A stretch of DNA of 27,099 bases, taken from IMG/VR virus record IMGVR_UViG_3300044634_000251, positions 1 through 27,099 of that record; one strand, given 5' to 3'. The position numbers were made by a program, and so were the translations under genes. Shown here one piece after another: positions 5,879 through 14,647 of the stretch. The DNA comes from a virus. The notes below the pieces were generated by a model that was not told the DNA's origin, ran no database searches, and saw only the letters and a list, made by a program, of their open reading frames with translations. Position 1 is the stretch's first letter, and each line of letters starts with the position of its first letter.

Positions 5879-8719
5879 ATGGCACTCGTAGTCAAAGATA
5901 GAGTTCAAGAAACGACCACCACCGTTGGTACAGGAACAGTGACTCTTGGCGGCGCGGTTCTGGGCTTTCAGACGTTTGCAATTATTGGTAACGGTAACAC
6001 TACGTATTACGCAATTGTTGACCCGACTACAGGCGAGTGGGAAGTGGGCATTGGCACATACACAGCTTCGGGCACAACGTTAAGCCGTACCACTGTTTTT
6101 GAGTCCAGCAATTCTGGTAGTCTGGTGAATTTTGCCGCCGGGACAAAAAATGTATTTTGTACATATCCAGCGGAAAGGGCGGTGTATTTAGACGCAGCAG
6201 GGTCTGCTGTGACTTTGTTAGACATTGGCACACTGGGTGCGAGCACTGCAAACATTACAACGGCAAATATCACGTCCGGTACAATTACCACAACCCCGGT
6301 TAACAACACTGACATCGTTAACAAGGAATATGCGGACGCTATTGCATCTGGCATTCATTTCCACGAAGCGGTGTCCTTGGCAACCACCACAGCGTTGCCA
6401 GCAAACACATACAACAACGGCACATCTGGGGTCGGTGCAACGCTTACAGGAAACGCTAATGGCGCTCTGTCGGTGGACTCAACGCTTACGGTTGTTACAG
6501 AACGCATACTTGTAAAAAATGAAGCAACGGGCGCAAACAACGGTGTGTATGTTGTTACTCAAGTTGGCTCTGCTGGAACGCCCTACATACTGACCCGCGC
6601 TACGGATTTTGATACCGCTGGCACTGGGGTTGACCAGATTGACGAGGGTGACTTTTTCTTGGTTACCAACGGCGTTGTTAACCTCAATACCGCTTGGGTG
6701 CAACAGACCGCCCCACCCATTACAGTTGGCACAACGGCGATTGTTTTCCAGCAGTTTTCTGCCCCTATCACCTATACCGCAGGGACAGGACTGAGTGAGT
6801 CCCCAACCTACACATTCAATATTGCCAACACTGGTACGGCGGGTACGTATGGCTCAGCATCGTCAGTCCCAGTCTTTGTTACCAACGCGCAAGGCCAAGT
6901 TACATCGGTCACAAATACAGGTATTGCTATTTCTTCAGGCGCAGTCTCAGGCTTGGCAGCTTCAGCAACAACGGACACAACCAATGCAGACAACATTACA
7001 TCGGGTACGCTTGGCACTTCACGTTTGTCGGGAAGCTATACGGGAGTTACTGGGGTCGGTACTCTTACTGCTGGCACTTGGAACGCTACTGCTATTAACG
7101 CCGTTTATGGTGGTACGGGTATTACTTCGTATTCTGTGGGAGACATTGTTTACGCCGACACGACCACGTCGCTCGCAAAACTCGCGGATGTAGCTGTTGG
7201 CAATGCGCTGATCTCTGGCGGCGTGGCTGCGGCTCCAAGCTGGGGCAAGATTGGTTTGGCAACGCATGTCAGCGGAACACTGCCAATCGCCAACGGCGGA
7301 ACAAACAGCACAGCTACTCCAACAAACGGCGGGGTTGTTTACGGCACAGGTACAGCACAAGCGTATTCAACAGCAGGCACATCTGGACAAGTTTTAACTT
7401 CGGCTGGCGCTGCTGCGCCAACGTGGACAACAGCAACCAACGCAAATACAGCGTCTGCAATCGTTCAGCGAGATGGCTCTGGCAACTTCAGTGCTGGAAC
7501 AATTACTGCGGCATTAAGCGGGAATGCGTCTACTTCGTCTACTGCAACAAGCGCAAACGGTTTAAGCGGCATAAATTCAAACATCAGCTCCGCAGTTCAA
7601 ACAGGAACAATCAGTTCCATGCTTGCTCAGGATACAAACGCAAGTTTGTACAGATATACGGCGGGGGCAGTTGCCGCGTTTATTACAGGCCAAGCAATAA
7701 ACACCACTGGCAATGCGGCTACTGCAACCGTTTTACAAACCGCAAGAACAATAGGCGGCGTATCTTTTAACGGCTCTGCAAACATTAACTTGCCCGGTGT
7801 AAATGCGGCGGGCAATCAAAACACCACGGGTTCATCAGGTTCATGCACAGGTAATGCGGCAACTGCAACCGCATTGTCCAGCGGGCAATCAAATTGGAGT
7901 GGTACGGGCGTTCTTGGTAACGTGGTTGGTTTGATGGCGTGGAAGAACTACGGCAACAGCCACGTAATTTTTGATGCTTCCAATAGCACATCTCCAAGCG
8001 GCGGGGCAGTAAACAACACCAATTCAAGTGTTGCTTGGAGTGCGACATACCCTACATTGATGGGTTGGAATGGGTCAAGTACTTATGGTGTTCGTGTTGA
8101 TTCAGCAAGAATTTCCAATCTTTCAGATAGAGCGCCAACATACTTTTACATTGACCAAAACTATGGCTATAGCGTAGTTGGACTTTATACCAGCACAATT
8201 TTCCAAGGCGTGTTTGCTATGGGAGATGCGTATAAAACTACTGCTGGCGGCGGCATAAGTAACTTGTATGGAATGACTTGGTCTTATCCATCTGCTGGCG
8301 GTATTGCTGGAAATTTGTCTTCCCACGGAATGATTGTGGCAATCAATGGTGGTTTTGGTTCGTGTATGTCATACAACGTGACAGCATCTGCCAACGTCAC
8401 TGCATATTCTGATGAGCGGCTTAAAAAGAATTGGGAGCCGCTGTGTGACAACTTTGTTGAAAAGTTGGCTGGCGTTAAAGTTGGGACATACGAGCGTATA
8501 GACCAGCCAATCGTTCAAGTTGGTGTCTCAGCCCAATCACTGGAAAAAGTTCTGCCTGAAGCTGTGACAACAGGCTCGGATGACATGCAAACAAAACACG
8601 TTGCTTATGGCAACGCAGCTTTGGCGTCCGCTGTTATGCTTGCGCAGGAAATCGTAGAGCTTAAGAAAATGATGAAACAAATGCAAGAAGAAATTGCAGA
8701 ATTAAAAAGAGGTGCGTAA
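5879..8719 (+). CDS. Tail fibre with C-terminal peptidase S74 intramolecular chaperone
   Basis: 946 aa, starting at ATG 5879 (upstream AGAGG). Residues 1-105 form a virion-attachment-like domain (KDRVQETTTTVGTGTVTLGG ... AGTKNVFCTYPAERAVY). A shaft region follows (IVNKEYADAIASGIHFHEAV near 146-165, then Thr/Gly/Ala-rich repeats with VSGTLPIANGGT and SGQVLTSAGAAAPTW). A receptor-binding-like domain lies at ~700-830 (MAWKNYGNSHVIFDAS, TLMGWNGSSTYGVRVDSARI). From S844 the sequence YSDERLKKNWEPL begins the S74 domain, with VGVSAQSLEKVLPEAV and a terminal coiled coil (EIVELKKMMKQMQEEIAELK). In this family the domain trimerises the fibre and cuts itself off near the Ser-Asp pair; S844-D845 and nearby Lys residues are present. 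It acts as the cell-adhesion fibre; receptor unknown. Confidence 0.85.
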   Translation: MALVVKDRVQETTTTVGTGTVTLGGAVLGFQTFAIIGNGNTTYYAIVDPTTGEWEVGIGTYTASGTTLSRTTVFESSNSGSLVNFAAGTKNVFCTYPAERAVYLDAAGSAVTLLDIGTLGASTANITTANITSGTITTTPVNNTDIVNKEYADAIASGIHFHEAVSLATTTALPANTYNNGTSGVGATLTGNANGALSVDSTLTVVTERILVKNEATGANNGVYVVTQVGSAGTPYILTRATDFDTAGTGVDQIDEGDFFLVTNGVVNLNTAWVQQTAPPITVGTTAIVFQQFSAPITYTAGTGLSESPTYTFNIANTGTAGTYGSASSVPVFVTNAQGQVTSVTNTGIAISSGAVSGLAASATTDTTNADNITSGTLGTSRLSGSYTGVTGVGTLTAGTWNATAINAVYGGTGITSYSVGDIVYADTTTSLAKLADVAVGNALISGGVAAAPSWGKIGLATHVSGTLPIANGGTNSTATPTNGGVVYGTGTAQAYSTAGTSGQVLTSAGAAAPTWTTATNANTASAIVQRDGSGNFSAGTITAALSGNASTSSTATSANGLSGINSNISSAVQTGTISSMLAQDTNASLYRYTAGAVAAFITGQAINTTGNAATATVLQTARTIGGVSFNGSANINLPGVNAAGNQNTTGSSGSCTGNAATATALSSGQSNWSGTGVLGNVVGLMAWKNYGNSHVIFDASNSTSPSGGAVNNTNSSVAWSATYPTLMGWNGSSTYGVRVDSARISNLSDRAPTYFYIDQNYGYSVVGLYTSTIFQGVFAMGDAYKTTAGGGISNLYGMTWSYPSAGGIAGNLSSHGMIVAINGGFGSCMSYNVTASANVTAYSDERLKKNWEPLCDNFVEKLAGVKVGTYERIDQPIVQVGVSAQSLEKVLPEAVTTGSDDMQTKHVAYGNAALASAVMLAQEIVELKKMMKQMQEEIAELKRGA

Positions 8720-9102: not shown

Positions 9103-10272
9103 ATGAGCAGTACATACTCAGACAGTCTCCGTGTTGAGCTGGTTGGCCCGGGTGACCAAGCAGGCGCATGGGGTACGACAACAAACAACAACTTTGCTTT
9201 CATCTTTGACAAAGCAATTGCCGGGTATCTATCGGTTGACATTACCGTCGCCCCTTATACGTTGACAGAAGTCAACGGCCCAACATCTTCGTCCGCGCTC
9301 AACCAGTCGATCTACGCTTCGCTTCGGTTCTACAACGCCGTTGCTGCATCAACCGTTTATGCCCCAGCGGTTTCCAAGACGTACGTTATCTGGAACGACT
9401 CCAGCTACGCAGTTACCCTGTACAACACAGGCTACTCAACCGGGCCGACCATCGCGGCTGGCGCTAGGGTTTTGGTGTTCTCAACCGGCACTGCGTTCTA
9501 CGAAGTCTCCCCCCAAACCGTGGGCGGCGTTGTCCCAATCACCAAAGGCGGCACAGGCCAAATTACAGCCAACGCAGCGTTCAACGCTTTGGTTCCATCC
9601 CAAACAAGCGCCAACGGCAAGTACTTGAAGTCTGACGGCACAAACACAGGCTGGGATGCAATCGACGTTGGAAGCGCGGACATATCTGGCGTATTGCTTG
9701 GGGCCAACGGTGGTACAGGCGTAGCGAACACAGGCCGGACAATTACGCTTGGTGGGAACGTGTCAACCGGCGGAGCGCTGACAACCGGCGGAGCGCTGAC
9801 AACTTCCGGTGCTTTTGGTGTCACTCTTACTGCTACTGCTCTCACTGCTGTTACTCTGCCAACAACTGGCACTCTGGCAACCTTGGCTGGTTCAGAGACT
9901 TTGACCAACAAGACCATTAACGGCTCAAACAATACCATCACCAACGTCAGTCTGACCGCTGGCGTGACAGGAACCTTGCCTATCGCCAATGGTGGCACTG
10001 GAGCAACCACATTTTCTTCTGGCGCATTGCTCAAAGGCGCTGGAACATCCGCGATCACAACCGCAAGTGCGGCAGACATTGTTGGCCAGATTGGAGCCAC
10101 CGCAGTTACCAACACAACCAATGCAACCCGCATAACAAACAGTGGTGGTTGGAACGTGACCCCCTCTGGAACAACGTTGTACTTCGATTACAACGGGACA
10201 AATGTAGGATCGCTGGACTCGTCTGGTAATTTCACAGTTATCGGTAACGTAACTGCATACGGTTCTGTCTAA
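9103..10272 (+). CDS. Second tail fibre, lacking a C-terminal chaperone
   Basis: 389 aa, start at ATG 9103 (AAGGA 8-12 nt upstream). The N-terminus STYSDSLRVELVGPGDQAGA then WGTTTNNNF is typical of phage fibre attachment domains. The middle is Thr/Gly/Ala-rich fibre shaft with GGTGQIT, VTGTLPIANGGTGATTFSSG and SETLTNKTING units, also seen in the first fibre. An 18-bp direct duplication at 9764-9799 encodes a doubled TGGALT. The protein ends ...SGNFTVIGNVTAYGSV, the point where homologous fibres, including the 946-aa one here (NVTAYSDERLKK), go on into peptidase S74. It therefore stops one step before a chaperone domain. Either it trimerises without one or it is a shortened allele. Still clearly a fibre. 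Confidence 0.8.
   Translation: MSSTYSDSLRVELVGPGDQAGAWGTTTNNNFAFIFDKAIAGYLSVDITVAPYTLTEVNGPTSSSALNQSIYASLRFYNAVAASTVYAPAVSKTYVIWNDSSYAVTLYNTGYSTGPTIAAGARVLVFSTGTAFYEVSPQTVGGVVPITKGGTGQITANAAFNALVPSQTSANGKYLKSDGTNTGWDAIDVGSADISGVLLGANGGTGVANTGRTITLGGNVSTGGALTTGGALTTSGAFGVTLTATALTAVTLPTTGTLATLAGSETLTNKTINGSNNTITNVSLTAGVTGTLPIANGGTGATTFSSGALLKGAGTSAITTASAADIVGQIGATAVTNTTNATRITNSGGWNVTPSGTTLYFDYNGTNVGSLDSSGNFTVIGNVTAYGSV
9764..9799 (+). repeat. 18-bp perfect tandem duplication inside fibre gene
   Basis: The unit CAACCGGCGGAGCGCTGA is present twice in direct succession (9764-9781 and 9782-9799) and a third copy begins with CAAC. It is in-frame (18 = 6 codons) and gives a repeated TGGALT in the shaft of the second fibre, so it lengthens the shaft by six residues. 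It looks like a recent slippage duplication. Confidence 0.9.
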
Positions 10273-10282
10273 GGAGTAATCT

Positions 10283-11260
10283 ATGGTAATGCCATCAAGC
10301 GGCCCTTTGAATATGGGCGGCACAAGTAGCCCAGTCAGCGTTGCGCAGGAGCTTGGCCTTAGTTTGACTGCAACAATTTCAATGAACCAAGCTAACGTCC
10401 GGACGTTAGCTGGTGTTGGCGGTAGTGGTACAACTTGGAGTATGAATTCTTTGTACGGCAAATCAAACGCGTTTTCTTTTACTATTAGCAGCAATCAAAC
10501 CAATGCAAACCTTCGCACACTGGCCGTAAACGCTGGTTGGAATCAGTCTAGCAAAGTTATTGCAACTATTAATGGTGGTATATTCATCAGCAGTAACGGT
10601 ACTGGAACTGCGGCGCTCACAGTCAACGGATCATTCCCCGGAGGAGTTGACCTAATCAACAACGGCACTATTGCTGGCATGGGCGGCGCTGGTGGTATTG
10701 GTGGTGCCATCAACTATAGCAGTGTCGCCGTTCCCGGTACTGCTGGCGCTAGCGGTGGATTGGCGCTTTCTGTTTCTTCTGCTGTTAGCATAACCAACAA
10801 CGGCACTATCGGTGGCGGTGGTGGCGGCGGTGGTGGTGGTCAGGCCTGCCAGAACCGGTACGTCGATCGGGAAACTAGACTTCTTTGGGGTGGTGGTGGT
10901 GGTGGTGGTCAATCAAGCGCTGCGGCCAACTCAGCAGGTGGTGCTGCCGGCAGCGTTGCCGGACAGGTTTCTGCCGGTACCCAACCTCAACCGGGTGGTG
11001 CAGGCACATCTAGTGGTGCTGGGGCGGGTGGAGCAGGAACCGCCAACCCCTATGCAGGGAATCCGGGCTATGGTGGTGCTGGCGGTGCTGGTGGCACACG
11101 AGGTGCGGCTGGCGCAAGTGGAGGAAATTATTCTATCGGTTTCGGCCCTGTTTACGTCACAGCCGGCCCATATAGTGGCGGCAGTGCCGGTGGTGCCGTA
11201 TCGGGCAATGCAAATATAACTTGGCTGGCGTACGGAACTCGCCTTGGAGCAATAACATGA
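10283..11260 (+). CDS. Polyglycine-rich tail adhesin
   Basis: 325 aa; ATG 10283 with AAGGAG 6 nt upstream. An N-terminal ~60-residue domain (MPSSGPLNMGG, SVAQELGLSLTATISMNQAN, VRTLAGVGGSGTTWSMNSLY GKS) resembles the start of many phage fibre-tip proteins. A middle domain follows, then from about residue 145 the protein becomes a glycine sandwich: runs of Gly (176-185 and 203-209), GGAGG, GAGAGGAGT, GGAGGAGGT. This layout is like the polyglycine type-II sandwich of T-even-like gp38 adhesins, which sit at the fibre tip and recognise the receptor; relationship by descent is not claimed. Segments between the Gly runs (CQNRYVDRETRLLW, YSIGFGPVYVTAG) are the likely exposed receptor loops. The Gly runs are coded by GGT repeats. 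Confidence 0.7.
   Translation: MVMPSSGPLNMGGTSSPVSVAQELGLSLTATISMNQANVRTLAGVGGSGTTWSMNSLYGKSNAFSFTISSNQTNANLRTLAVNAGWNQSSKVIATINGGIFISSNGTGTAALTVNGSFPGGVDLINNGTIAGMGGAGGIGGAINYSSVAVPGTAGASGGLALSVSSAVSITNNGTIGGGGGGGGGGQACQNRYVDRETRLLWGGGGGGGQSSAAANSAGGAAGSVAGQVSAGTQPQPGGAGTSSGAGAGGAGTANPYAGNPGYGGAGGAGGTRGAAGASGGNYSIGFGPVYVTAGPYSGGSAGGAVSGNANITWLAYGTRLGAIT
10390..10411. repeat. 22-bp perfect palindrome in adhesin gene
   Basis: The half AGCTAACGTCC (10390-10400) is followed directly by its exact reverse complement GGACGTTAGCT (10401-10411), with no spacer. On the coding strand it encodes QANVRTLAG. A perfect 22-bp dyad is unlikely by chance in a 27-kb window. It has no T-tract, so it is not a classic terminator. 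It could be a protein-binding or recombination site, or simply codon coincidence. Confidence 0.9.
10811..10909 (+). repeat. GGN trinucleotide runs (polyglycine coding)
   Basis: Ten consecutive GGN codons lie at 10811-10840 and seven perfect GGT codons at 10889-10909, separated by a non-repetitive stretch coding CQNRYVDRETRLLW. Runs of this kind are prone to slippage in steps of three, which would change the length of the polyglycine sandwich without breaking the frame. Confidence 0.85.
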
Positions 11261-11292
11261 ACATTACATATACATTTGGAGCAATAACATGA
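11257..11292 (+). CDS. Leader mini-ORF 1 (MNITYTFGAIT)
   Basis: Eleven codons and a TGA. The ATG overlaps the adhesin stop (ATGA at 11257-11260) and GGAG lies 7 nt upstream. The peptide repeats the first six residues of the downstream 149-aa protein (MNITYT) and ends GAIT like the adhesin. Translation is plausible but not shown by sequence alone. Confidence 0.4.
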   Translation: MNITYTFGAIT

Positions 11293-11324
11293 ACATTACA
11301 TATACATTTGGAGCAATAACATGA
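11289..11324 (+). CDS. Leader mini-ORF 2 (MNITYTFGAIT)
   Basis: Identical peptide from the second repeat. Its ATG overlaps the TGA of mini-ORF 1 and its own TGA overlaps the ATG of mini-ORF 3. Because the unit is 32 bp, each copy sits in a different frame from its neighbour. Confidence 0.4.
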   Translation: MNITYTFGAIT

Positions 11325-11356
11325 ACATTACATATACATTTGGAGCAATAACATGA
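11321..11356 (+). CDS. Leader mini-ORF 3 (MNITYTFGAIT)
   Basis: Third identical peptide; its TGA (11354-11356) overlaps the ATG (11353) of the 149-aa tail assembly chaperone-like gene. Together the three form a stop-start ladder that could pass ribosomes from the adhesin gene to the downstream gene. Confidence 0.4.
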   Translation: MNITYTFGAIT

Positions 11357-11802
11357 ACATTACATACACATACGAAATTATTTCTGTTGACCAACAGGCC
11401 CGTTGCATGGAGGTTGTGTACACCGCAGAGGGCTATCAAACAATGCACATTGGAGCAAGACTTCCATATGAAGGCGAAACCCTTGAAGCCATTGTTCAGA
11501 TGTATGCTCCAGTTCGGTACTGGGAAGAACAAAATACACCAGTTGTTACGGTAAACCCCGGACAAACAGGCAGCGTGCAAATTCTTCCACCTATAGTTCC
11601 TAGTGCAGCAGAAACTGCCAGAAGACGGCGCAACCTTTTGCTTACAGACAGCGACTGGACTCAGTTAAGTGATGCATCAATTGGTGAGCTTGAAAAAACT
11701 GAGTGGCTTGGATATCGTCAGGCACTTCGCGACTTGCCAAGTCAAACGGGTTTTCCTGACGCTATTGTTTGGCCTCTTTCTCCCGGCTTGGAGCTTCGCT
11801 AA
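11353..11802 (+). CDS. Tail assembly chaperone-like protein (Phage_tail_APC type)
   Basis: 149 aa. ATG 11353 lies in the fourth repeat with GGAG 7 nt upstream. Residues 1-80 are a poorly recognisable beta-rich N-terminus. From about residue 88 the sequence reads RRRRNLLLTDSDWTQLSD, then ELEKTEWLGYRQALRDLP and FPDAIVWPLSP, a clear match to the phage tail assembly chaperone signature (R-xx-LL-x-x-x-DWTQ ... W-x-x-YRQ-x-LRDLP ... FP-x-x-x-WP). In this family it assists fibre or tail assembly and is often placed after fibre genes, as here. The stop overlaps the next ATG (TAATG). Confidence 0.8.
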   Translation: MNITYTYEIISVDQQARCMEVVYTAEGYQTMHIGARLPYEGETLEAIVQMYAPVRYWEEQNTPVVTVNPGQTGSVQILPPIVPSAAETARRRRNLLLTDSDWTQLSDASIGELEKTEWLGYRQALRDLPSQTGFPDAIVWPLSPGLELR

Positions 11803-12335
11803 TGCGATCTGAAGATTGTTTGCAACAGATTATTCCCGGCATCGCTGACGCTGGTGTGTTAGTAGAGGTTGGCGTATTGCGTGCGACTAACCTGTTGGCT
11901 TTGGCCGCAAGATTCCCAGCAATGCGCTTGATTGGTATTGATTCCTATGAAACGTACACTGATCCTTTGCATGGCGGCTACGTTGTCACAGCTGAAATGA
12001 GTCGGATGAATGAAGATATTGCTAAAAGGCGTATCAGCAAAAGCAACTTTGCCGATAGAATTGAACTTAGGGTAGAGCGGTCCGACTTAGCGGCATCAAA
12101 AATGTTGGATGCAAGTGTCGATCTTGTGTACTTGGATAAGGGCTTCACAGCCGCCGAACAGTTTGATGACGTAACTAAGTGGTTTCCCAAGGTGCGACCC
12201 GGGGGCATCTTAGCAGGACATGAAGCACACACTCCAGAGGTGGTGCGTGCAACCAAAGAAGCTCTCAAGGCGCTTGGAGTAATACCAGAATTAAAAATCA
12301 TTAGCGGTCAGGTTTGGTATTTCAGAAAGCAATAA
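11802..12335 (+). CDS. Class I SAM-dependent methyltransferase (Methyltransf_24-like)
   Basis: 177 aa from ATG 11802; an in-frame upstream start at 11769 is inside the previous gene. Motif I-like LVEVGVLRATNLLALAARFP (residues 20-39) carries the E-x-G core of the SAM-binding loop, although the usual second glycine is absent (GVLRA). An acidic strand end follows at LIGIDSYE (D47). DLVYLDKGFTAAEQFDDVTK then WFPKVRPGGILAGHEAH match the motif IV/V region of Methyltransf_24-type enzymes, with GHE where GHD is common. Relatives modify small molecules, sugars or proteins; the substrate here cannot be read. Lying between a fibre chaperone and the lysis block, it may modify the fibre or a host surface molecule. 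Confidence 0.7.
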   Translation: MRSEDCLQQIIPGIADAGVLVEVGVLRATNLLALAARFPAMRLIGIDSYETYTDPLHGGYVVTAEMSRMNEDIAKRRISKSNFADRIELRVERSDLAASKMLDASVDLVYLDKGFTAAEQFDDVTKWFPKVRPGGILAGHEAHTPEVVRATKEALKALGVIPELKIISGQVWYFRKQ

Positions 12336-12336
12336 C

Positions 12337-12399
12337 ATGCCCTACGCCTTCCTGAACTCCGACGGCTCCATCAAGGTGGTGGCGGAGGCTGTAAATTGA
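12337..12399 (+). CDS. 20-aa ORF, possibly a gene remnant or leader
   Basis: ATG 12337 follows the methyltransferase stop (TAA 12333-12335) in the context GCAATAACATG, the same 11 bases that precede each ATG in the 32-bp repeat. It encodes MPYAFLNSDGSIK and seven more residues before TGA at 12397-12399. The start resembles that of a tail or fibre-related protein as I recall, so this may be a truncated copy. It ends exactly on the start region of the next gene, with GGAGG (12384-12388) inside its 3' end, so it may also couple ribosomes to that gene. Confidence 0.4.
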   Translation: MPYAFLNSDGSIKVVAEAVN

Positions 12400-13090
12400 T
12401 CCGATCAGCATCCTCTTTGCCGCAAATGCTTGTGTTGCCGCCATCAAGGAAGGGTGCGAGTTATACAAGCAGGCCAAGACCTCTTTCATGGAGGTCAAGG
12501 CTACAGTTGATGAAGCTGTTGGGATTGCCAAGGAAGTTCATGGGTTCTGGGGCAAGCTTGCCAAGATGTTTGGTGGAAACCCCACCCCCGCCGCGCTCAA
12601 GCCTGTGGCGAAAAAGAAGGAAAAGTACGTTGCTGTTGACGAGTCCAAAGTCATGGCGGATGTTGTCAGCCAGCTTACTGAGTTCTTCAAGCTGCAAGAG
12701 CAGTTGGCAGCGCATATAAGGGAAGAGGAAGAAAAGAGCCAGACTGTCTACGACCCCAATGCCAACCTGATGGAAGCCGCCCTGAAGAGGGTCATGGCTC
12801 AAGACCAGATGGCTGCGTTGGAAGTGACAATCAGGGAAACTATGGTGTATCAGTCACCGCCAGAAATGGGGGCGCTGTATTCCAAAGTGTTTGAGATGCG
12901 TGGCGTGATACAGGAGGAGCAGGAGAAGGCAAGGTTGAAGGAAGAGGCGCAGGAGAGGTACAAGCAATGGCAACGACGGGAGGAAAAAAGAAACTTCCAA
13001 GCAAAGTCGGCGTATCTCGTAGCGACTATCCTATTCCTCCTTTACCTGTGGTTGTGGCTCCTGTTCGTCAGTCGTTTGGGGAAGACGTAA
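12395..13090 (+). CDS. Membrane-anchored protein of unknown function, probable ATT start
   Basis: 231 aa if initiated at ATT 12395. The first in-frame ATG (12488) would remove a hydrophobic stretch, IDPISILFAANACVAAIK, that looks like a genuine start of this family (proteins beginning 'M-DPI...AANA-V..IK.G'). No ATG, GTG or TTG is available in-frame between the upstream TAA (12392-12394) and ATG 12488 except a GTT/ATC region, while GGAGG sits 6 nt before the ATT. Residues 32-90 are Lys-rich (VHGFWGKLAKMFGG), 95-195 predicted helical and charged (coiled-coil-like EEEEK, EEQEKARLKEEAQER), and residues 205-224 form one transmembrane segment (SAYLVATILFLLYLWLWLLF). It may belong to the lysis/envelope block; function unknown. 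Confidence 0.6.
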   Translation: MDPISILFAANACVAAIKEGCELYKQAKTSFMEVKATVDEAVGIAKEVHGFWGKLAKMFGGNPTPAALKPVAKKKEKYVAVDESKVMADVVSQLTEFFKLQEQLAAHIREEEEKSQTVYDPNANLMEAALKRVMAQDQMAALEVTIRETMVYQSPPEMGALYSKVFEMRGVIQEEQEKARLKEEAQERYKQWQRREEKRNFQAKSAYLVATILFLLYLWLWLLFVSRLGKT

Positions 13091-14186: not shown

Positions 14187-14647
14187 ATCTGACCGCCAAC
14201 TTCTCCCTGCACGAACTGACCAAATCCGAGACCGCCCTGCGCATGGGCTTTGACAACACCCCCGGTGAAGCCGAGATCGAGGCTCTGCGCCTGCTGTGCG
14301 AGAAAGTCCTCCAGCCCGTGCGCGACCACTTTGGCAAAGGCGTCAAGGTGAACTCAGGGTTCCGCGCTCCAGCCGTCAACCAAGCCACCGGAGGCTCAAA
14401 GACCTCAGACCATTGCCTTGGCCGAGCAGCCGATATTGAGATACCCGGAGTAGCCAACGCAGAGCTTGCTCAATGGATAATGGATAACCTAGAATACACC
14501 CAGCTCATTCTTGAGTTTTACACCCCCGGCATCCCTGACAGTGGCTGGGTGCATGTCTCTTATGACCCAAGCAACCTGAAGCAGCAGGAGTTGACCGCTA
14601 CAAAAGTAGCAGGTAAAACAACCTATCTTCAAGGTCTTGTAGCCTAA
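14183..14647 (+). CDS. Endolysin, peptidase M15 (M15_3-type)
   Basis: 154 aa; ATG overlaps the Rz stop. N-terminus NFSLHELTKSETALRMGFDN is the usual start of phage M15_3 peptidases (F-S-x-x-E-L-x-x-S-x-T-A). The zinc site is visible: SGFRAPAVNQATGGSKTSDH with H77, then GRAADIE with D84, and GWVHVSYD with H124. The family cleaves peptide crosslinks in peptidoglycan. There is no signal peptide, so export should depend on a holin. Size is normal for a single-domain M15 endolysin. It closes the lysis block. Confidence 0.85.
   Translation: MNLTANFSLHELTKSETALRMGFDNTPGEAEIEALRLLCEKVLQPVRDHFGKGVKVNSGFRAPAVNQATGGSKTSDHCLGRAADIEIPGVANAELAQWIMDNLEYTQLILEFYTPGIPDSGWVHVSYDPSNLKQQELTATKVAGKTTYLQGLVA

Follow-up and report, generated by a model that had tools for sequence, protein, structure and literature searches.

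A copy-variable tandem array of putative coupled mini-cistrons at the adhesin/chaperone junction of a phage tail locus

The DNA analyzed here (the window) is a 27,099-nucleotide stretch, positions 1 to 27,099 of IMG/VR virus record IMGVR_UViG_3300044634_000251. It carries a tandem array at the junction of an adhesin gene and a tail fiber assembly chaperone gene, in a neighborhood of tail and lysis genes that includes a tail fiber with an S74 domain and, further downstream, spanin and endolysin. The features discussed below are as follows.

9319..12930, plus strand: cassette identical to contig L007 bar one 32-bp unit (alignment)
10283..11260, plus strand: gp38-like glycine-rich tail-tip adhesin gene (AlphaFold fold match to gp38; phrog_10745)
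11244..11371, plus strand: tandem array, four copies of the 32-bp unit TTGGAGCAATAACATGAACATTACATATACAT (Tandem Repeats Finder and direct reading)
11246..11249, recurring at 11278, 11310, and 11342, plus strand: Shine-Dalgarno (SD)-like GGAG, copy 1, 7 nt before ATG; anti-SD duplex −5.6 kcal/mol
11257..11292, plus strand: mini-ORF 1, MNITYTFGAIT and stop (sequence)
11289..11324, plus strand: mini-ORF 2, MNITYTFGAIT and stop (sequence)
11321..11356, plus strand: mini-ORF 3, MNITYTFGAIT and stop (sequence, unit as in mini-ORFs 1 and 2)
11353..11802, plus strand: tail fiber assembly chaperone (Phage_tail_APC), beginning MNITYTYEIISVD (PF16778, E = 1e-22; phrog_4912)

Tandem Repeats Finder placed the array at 11244–11371 with a period of 32, 4.0 copies, and 98% matches, and its score of 249 was the top of 16 rows. 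The copies at 11244–11275, 11276–11307, and 11308–11339 are identical to one another, and the copy at 11340–11371 differs from them by a single C for T (31/32). An ATG lies 7 nt 3′ of each GGAG (11257, 11289, 11321, and 11353), and every TGA overlaps an ATG, giving 4-nt ATGA overlaps all along the array, the adhesin stop codon (11258–11260) lying inside the first of them. A sequence-only reading of the window had described these repeated, self-contained start-stop units, each with GGAG, ATG, and a TGA overlapping the next ATG, and both direct reading and Tandem Repeats Finder confirmed them; it had located the array correctly, although its span of 11246–11366 was slightly short. All four matches to the 32-bp unit in the 27,099-base record fall inside the array. 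Because the repeat is long and perfect, and because it is present in other assemblies, a chance origin is excluded.

The AlphaFold model of the adhesin (mean pLDDT 71.9) matches gp38 of PP01 (E = 3.2e-12) and S16 (E = 2.5e-9), and the protein combines the gp38 fold with polyglycine regions, which place it as gp38-type. A Pfam search with the ORF at 10283–11260, whose C terminus reads GTRLGAIT, gave no match, tblastn found no relatives of the adhesin among phage isolates, and its profile returned just one weak, unrelated match among PDB sequences (E = 0.092). The chaperone scored 80.1 bits against PF16778, above the gathering score of 26.6, and matched phrog_4912, tail fiber assembly, with an E of 1.2e-19. 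The gp38 fold match and PF16778 thus uphold the earlier assignment of an adhesin upstream and a tail chaperone downstream. Among phage isolates, the chaperone gave partial matches only, in 39 records, none covering 80%, and a search of genome contigs for its N terminus gave 29 pattern-matched stretches, none of which was confirmed. We detected neither an E. coli match nor a matching family in an Rfam search, and no promoter or terminator was found on the plus strand of 10900–11700, the single promoter-like match in that interval being on the minus strand and at shuffle level. A perfect 18-bp repeat (2.2 copies) occupies 9764–9803 within the ORF at 9103–10272; the related contig L009 is without 36 bp at about 9760, suggesting that this repeat may vary in length in frame.

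The mini-ORF peptide is composed of its two neighbors, MNITYT being the chaperone start and GAIT with its stop the adhesin end. Judged by its sequence, the array unit arose by tandem duplication of the adhesin/chaperone stop/start overlap. When the duplication of an ATGA overlap measures 2 mod 3 in length, the copied start falls in frame with the copied stop, and every extra copy would become a closed 11-codon cistron running from chaperone start to adhesin stop. Because a single duplication of suitable length, about one in three, suffices to produce closed start-stop units, their closure is no evidence of design. The upstream copies read TATACAT, and the last copy reads TACACAT, as do the single-copy contig L010 and contig L011. 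The T of the upstream copies is shared by the two-copy contig L009, which suggests a single duplication, after which the upstream copy was amplified.

Copy number was surveyed by an exact 27-mer scan of IMG/VR, the counts resting on assembled contigs. The array junction was detected in six contigs besides the four-copy window, with 4, 4, 4, 3, 2, and 1 copies, and all six carry the unit at the same adhesin/chaperone junction: L005, L006, and L008 have four copies like the window, L007 has three, L009 two, and L010 one. The junction in L011 and L012 is a plain single overlap. The counts are not fully independent, since L005, L006, and L008 are locally near-identical to the window; L005 differs from it by one SNP up to position 14276 and by 32 mismatches beyond. 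When 50 records were searched for the unit, two matched, those of L010 and L009, at one and two places, respectively. Between the window and L007, no SNP occurs across 9319–12930 (3.6 kb), three versus four copies being the sole difference, and outside this interval the aligned sequence is 7–24% divergent by block. The identical flanks indicate that unit number shifted before any base in the cassette did, which agrees with the recent slippage-like change that the sequence-only reading had suggested, and the natural range of one to four copies likewise bears out its view that copy number can change with the downstream frame kept, neither gene being harmed. An identical cassette within a diverged background points to recent movement of the adhesin-chaperone cassette between diverged phages. 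A study of Alteromonas phages (PMC10579305) describes unrelated phages exchanging modules of tail fiber plus chaperone, in keeping with this tract. At 6750–7750 of the window there is a second mismatch-free block relative to L007, inside a tail fiber gene whose other parts diverge by as much as 20% per 250 bases, a pattern of patchwork exchange.

Among 81 chaperone loci (80 and the window), an enlarged gap was present in 10: six of the window clade, L170 and L171 (contigs of L035 and L036), L179, and L176. The last has an extra small gene at the equivalent junction, a cysteine-rich ORF of 55 aa beginning MTTDERLQTCNSCEK (L176:2837–3004) between adhesin and chaperone. Of 124 distinct adhesin ends, 100 had the next long frame no more than 15 nt away, and the 24 exceptions comprised 8, from five lineages, with a duplicated or scarred junction and 16 with longer gaps or other neighbors. 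The 100 ordinary junctions are mostly overlaps, with an offset of −4 in 49 and −1 in 18. Beyond the window clade, independent duplication or scarring of the junction has occurred in no fewer than four lineages. In L035/L036, the period is 44 and the mini-ORF is VITTYKTGTHLGAST and stop, the L035 copies being merely 25/46 identical; L201 has a period of 104 with copies 102/104 identical; in L269–L272, the period is 33 bp and the duplication is closed by a new TAA. The fourth is L179, where a mini-ORF, MEYKIVSANRTTGDRYGSIS and stop (L179:2927–2989), joins a type-2 chaperone start to the adhesin end ahead of a type-1 chaperone, an apparent scar of cassette exchange. Arrays with three or more copies were confined to one clade among the adhesin ends examined.

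In 394 sequences (3.7 Mb, overlaps included), gene-called junctions clustered at 80% showed DNA-level duplication in 3/81 adhesin clusters versus 3/1603 others (Fisher p = 0.0019); L035 and L179 are undetected at the DNA level and therefore stand outside these counts. Without the window clade, p was 0.020, and the same comparison in a smaller, earlier set gave 0.027 when clustered at 80% and 0.0047 when clustered at 90%. The adhesin/chaperone boundary is most likely a hotspot at which duplications arise and cassettes are joined. Eight events, either duplications or scars, had outcomes that could be classed by reading: the window, L201, L035, L179, L335 (its junction that of L085), L269, L349 (that of L161), and L100. 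Closure is in the native frame for five of the eight (p = 0.088 versus one-third), so that a bias toward coupling-keeping frames was not established, and the duplications in L100 and L349 break the chain. Closed short-ORF chains were present in 86/694 uncalled ORF-end clusters versus 4/58 adhesin clusters (p = 0.94), the control class being not gene-called and including antisense ORFs; that such chains are common by chance weighs against a stronger claim for the array. At another gene pair, a 42-bp junction duplication produces the mini-ORF MALALKDLPS and stop (L335:5296; junction as in L085:1644). The pattern-scan matches L101, L104, and L105 are not junction duplications, L283 is unrelated to junction duplication, and L103 is a different array. 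On the latter, an unrelated viral contig, a gene is preceded by four diverged repeats of 34 bp (L103:1772–1941), every one having an SD and an ATG, and further degenerate SD-start repeats lie upstream, making a second, older-looking array of start modules.

We favor, with fair confidence, the reading that the array is an amplified junction duplication with ribosome relay, which persists mainly since it is harmless to either gene. Unit number would change by slippage or unequal recombination, and ribosomes would pass from copy to copy by termination-reinitiation. In three native E. coli gene pairs, reinitiation is almost gone at a gap of +38 nt, and in E. coli reporters it needs no more of the upstream gene than its last 15 nt (PMC10666635); for most of the E. 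coli pairs tested, the SD makes a difference (PMC6728339). Since +38-nt gaps nearly abolish reinitiation, a plain insert of 96 bp would presumably leave the chaperone uncoupled, and overlapping mini-ORFs should relay ribosomes. The chaperone would then stay coupled to the adhesin, with a copy-dependent loss that is modest at most, and the array may be kept mainly because neither gene suffers, at a site of frequent adhesin cassette exchange. Its effect on the chaperone is most likely mild tuning at most. In a simple model with reinitiation of 0.5 and de novo initiation of 0.1 per start, chaperone flux was 0.60, 0.40, 0.30, and 0.25 for one to four copies; with reinitiation of 0.9, the change was 0–21%, and over the range of the model, four copies versus one meant anything from zero to an approximately ninefold loss, set by the reinitiation rate.

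Selection might instead keep copy number variable to set the chaperone:adhesin ratio, making the array the length-variable translational attenuator that the sequence-only reading had proposed. This would accord with copy number as the sole difference between the window and L007 across 3.6 kb, with the modeled fall in flux from 0.60 to 0.25 at a reinitiation of 0.5, and with a native junction that is an overlap in most relatives. However, the modeled change is slight at a reinitiation of 0.9, the four-copy records (window, L005, L006, and L008, though locally near-identical) show no variation, and arrays exceeding two copies belong to one clade. The array RNA was less folded than 200/200 shuffles (z = +3.2), shuffling also destroying the repeat. 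The unpaired probability of the last SD was 0.07, 0.13, 0.15, and 0.14 for one to four copies, no less open with more copies, and that of the last ATG was 0.50, 0.31, 0.29, and 0.27, somewhat less open. We saw no alternative RNA structures or structural switch on folding junctions with one to four copies, and weak folding together with a last SD that is no less open gives no hint of an attenuator acting through structure. The mini-ORFs follow mechanically from the duplication, and chains of this kind arise commonly by chance. A selected attenuator, possible but in our judgment unlikely, is unsupported: there is no copy-dependent RNA structure or switch, no conserved peptide, and no significant frame bias.

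It is more doubtful that the duplicated adhesin-chaperone overlap serves as an evolvable rheostat, each copy costing one reinitiation step and so retuning the chaperone after adhesin exchange. Similarly doubtful is an origin of the first extra copy in adhesin cassette exchange between phages, left as a scar by illegitimate recombination rather than made by within-genome duplication. The fused mini-ORF of L179, the low identity of the L035 copies (25/46), the one-base difference between the first and last window units, a base also occurring in L012, and adhesin ends that differ at 80/291 between the window and L009, both of which have the unit, would all suit such a scar, whereas the 31/32 identity of the window units and the 102/104 identity of the L201 copies are as internal duplication predicts. 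Short-read assemblies can miscount 32-bp arrays, but an assembly artifact, which the sequence-only reading had allowed for, is very improbable given that the array occurs in several contigs that form a natural series of copy numbers and that the last copy carries a distinguishing base. Least credible is an 11-aa peptide functional in its own right: three identical copies would multiply its dose, but it is absent from single-copy relatives, the fusions of other lineages are unrelated, and one L201 copy has already changed from GGIS to GGIL.

The amplified, ribosome-relaying duplication that we favor has partial counterparts in known systems. In bicistronic design (BCD) leaders of synthetic biology, the first cistron is short, contains the SD of the second, and brings ribosomes there; a mini-cistron of the array would likewise hold the SD of the next and deliver ribosomes to it, the phage array differing in being natural, repeated, and variable in number. 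The upstream protein shares its fold with gp38 of T-even-like phages, but here a Phage_tail_APC chaperone follows, with a duplicated junction. The tandem copy number of mycobacterial interspersed repetitive units (MIRUs) differs between strains, as that of the array does between contigs (4, 4, 4, 3, 2, and 1). A MIRU is a short repeat that carries a small ORF; where the repeat inserts, this ORF is coupled to the adjacent gene through a −4-nt overlap, with little harm to that gene (PMC12548453), and the array mini-ORF is joined to its neighbor gene by the same −4-nt overlap, a likeness of sequence architecture only. MIRUs appear mobile and interspersed (PMC12548453), whereas the phage unit is found at its own junction only and consists of sequence native to it; across the 27,099-base record, the six contigs, and the 50 records, it was not interspersed, mobile, or placed at many start codons. 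The array thus resembles a MIRU in its working but is not one. The ATGA termination-reinitiation pairs share with the array a 4-nt overlap with an internal SD, and the cases described in PMC6728339 and PMC10666635 are single two-gene overlaps, whereas the phage array is a chain of up to four. In the literature searched, at the level of titles and listings, no report of a phage array of coupled junction repeats was found. From its sequence features, we regard the array as a chain of putatively coupled mini-cistrons that arose in place, varies in copy number, and has the MIRU as its nearest known kin.

The finding is real but modest, the copies probably letting ribosomes step on to the chaperone gene and nothing more. 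It follows a simple rule, in which a duplication of length 2 mod 3 across an ATGA keeps the coupling of the junction. The natural series of one, two, three, and four copies of coupled mini-cistrons, with the three- and four-copy forms in identical flanks, offers a ready test of the cost of each termination-reinitiation step, and the hotspot at the adhesin/chaperone boundary bears on how phages change receptor specificity.
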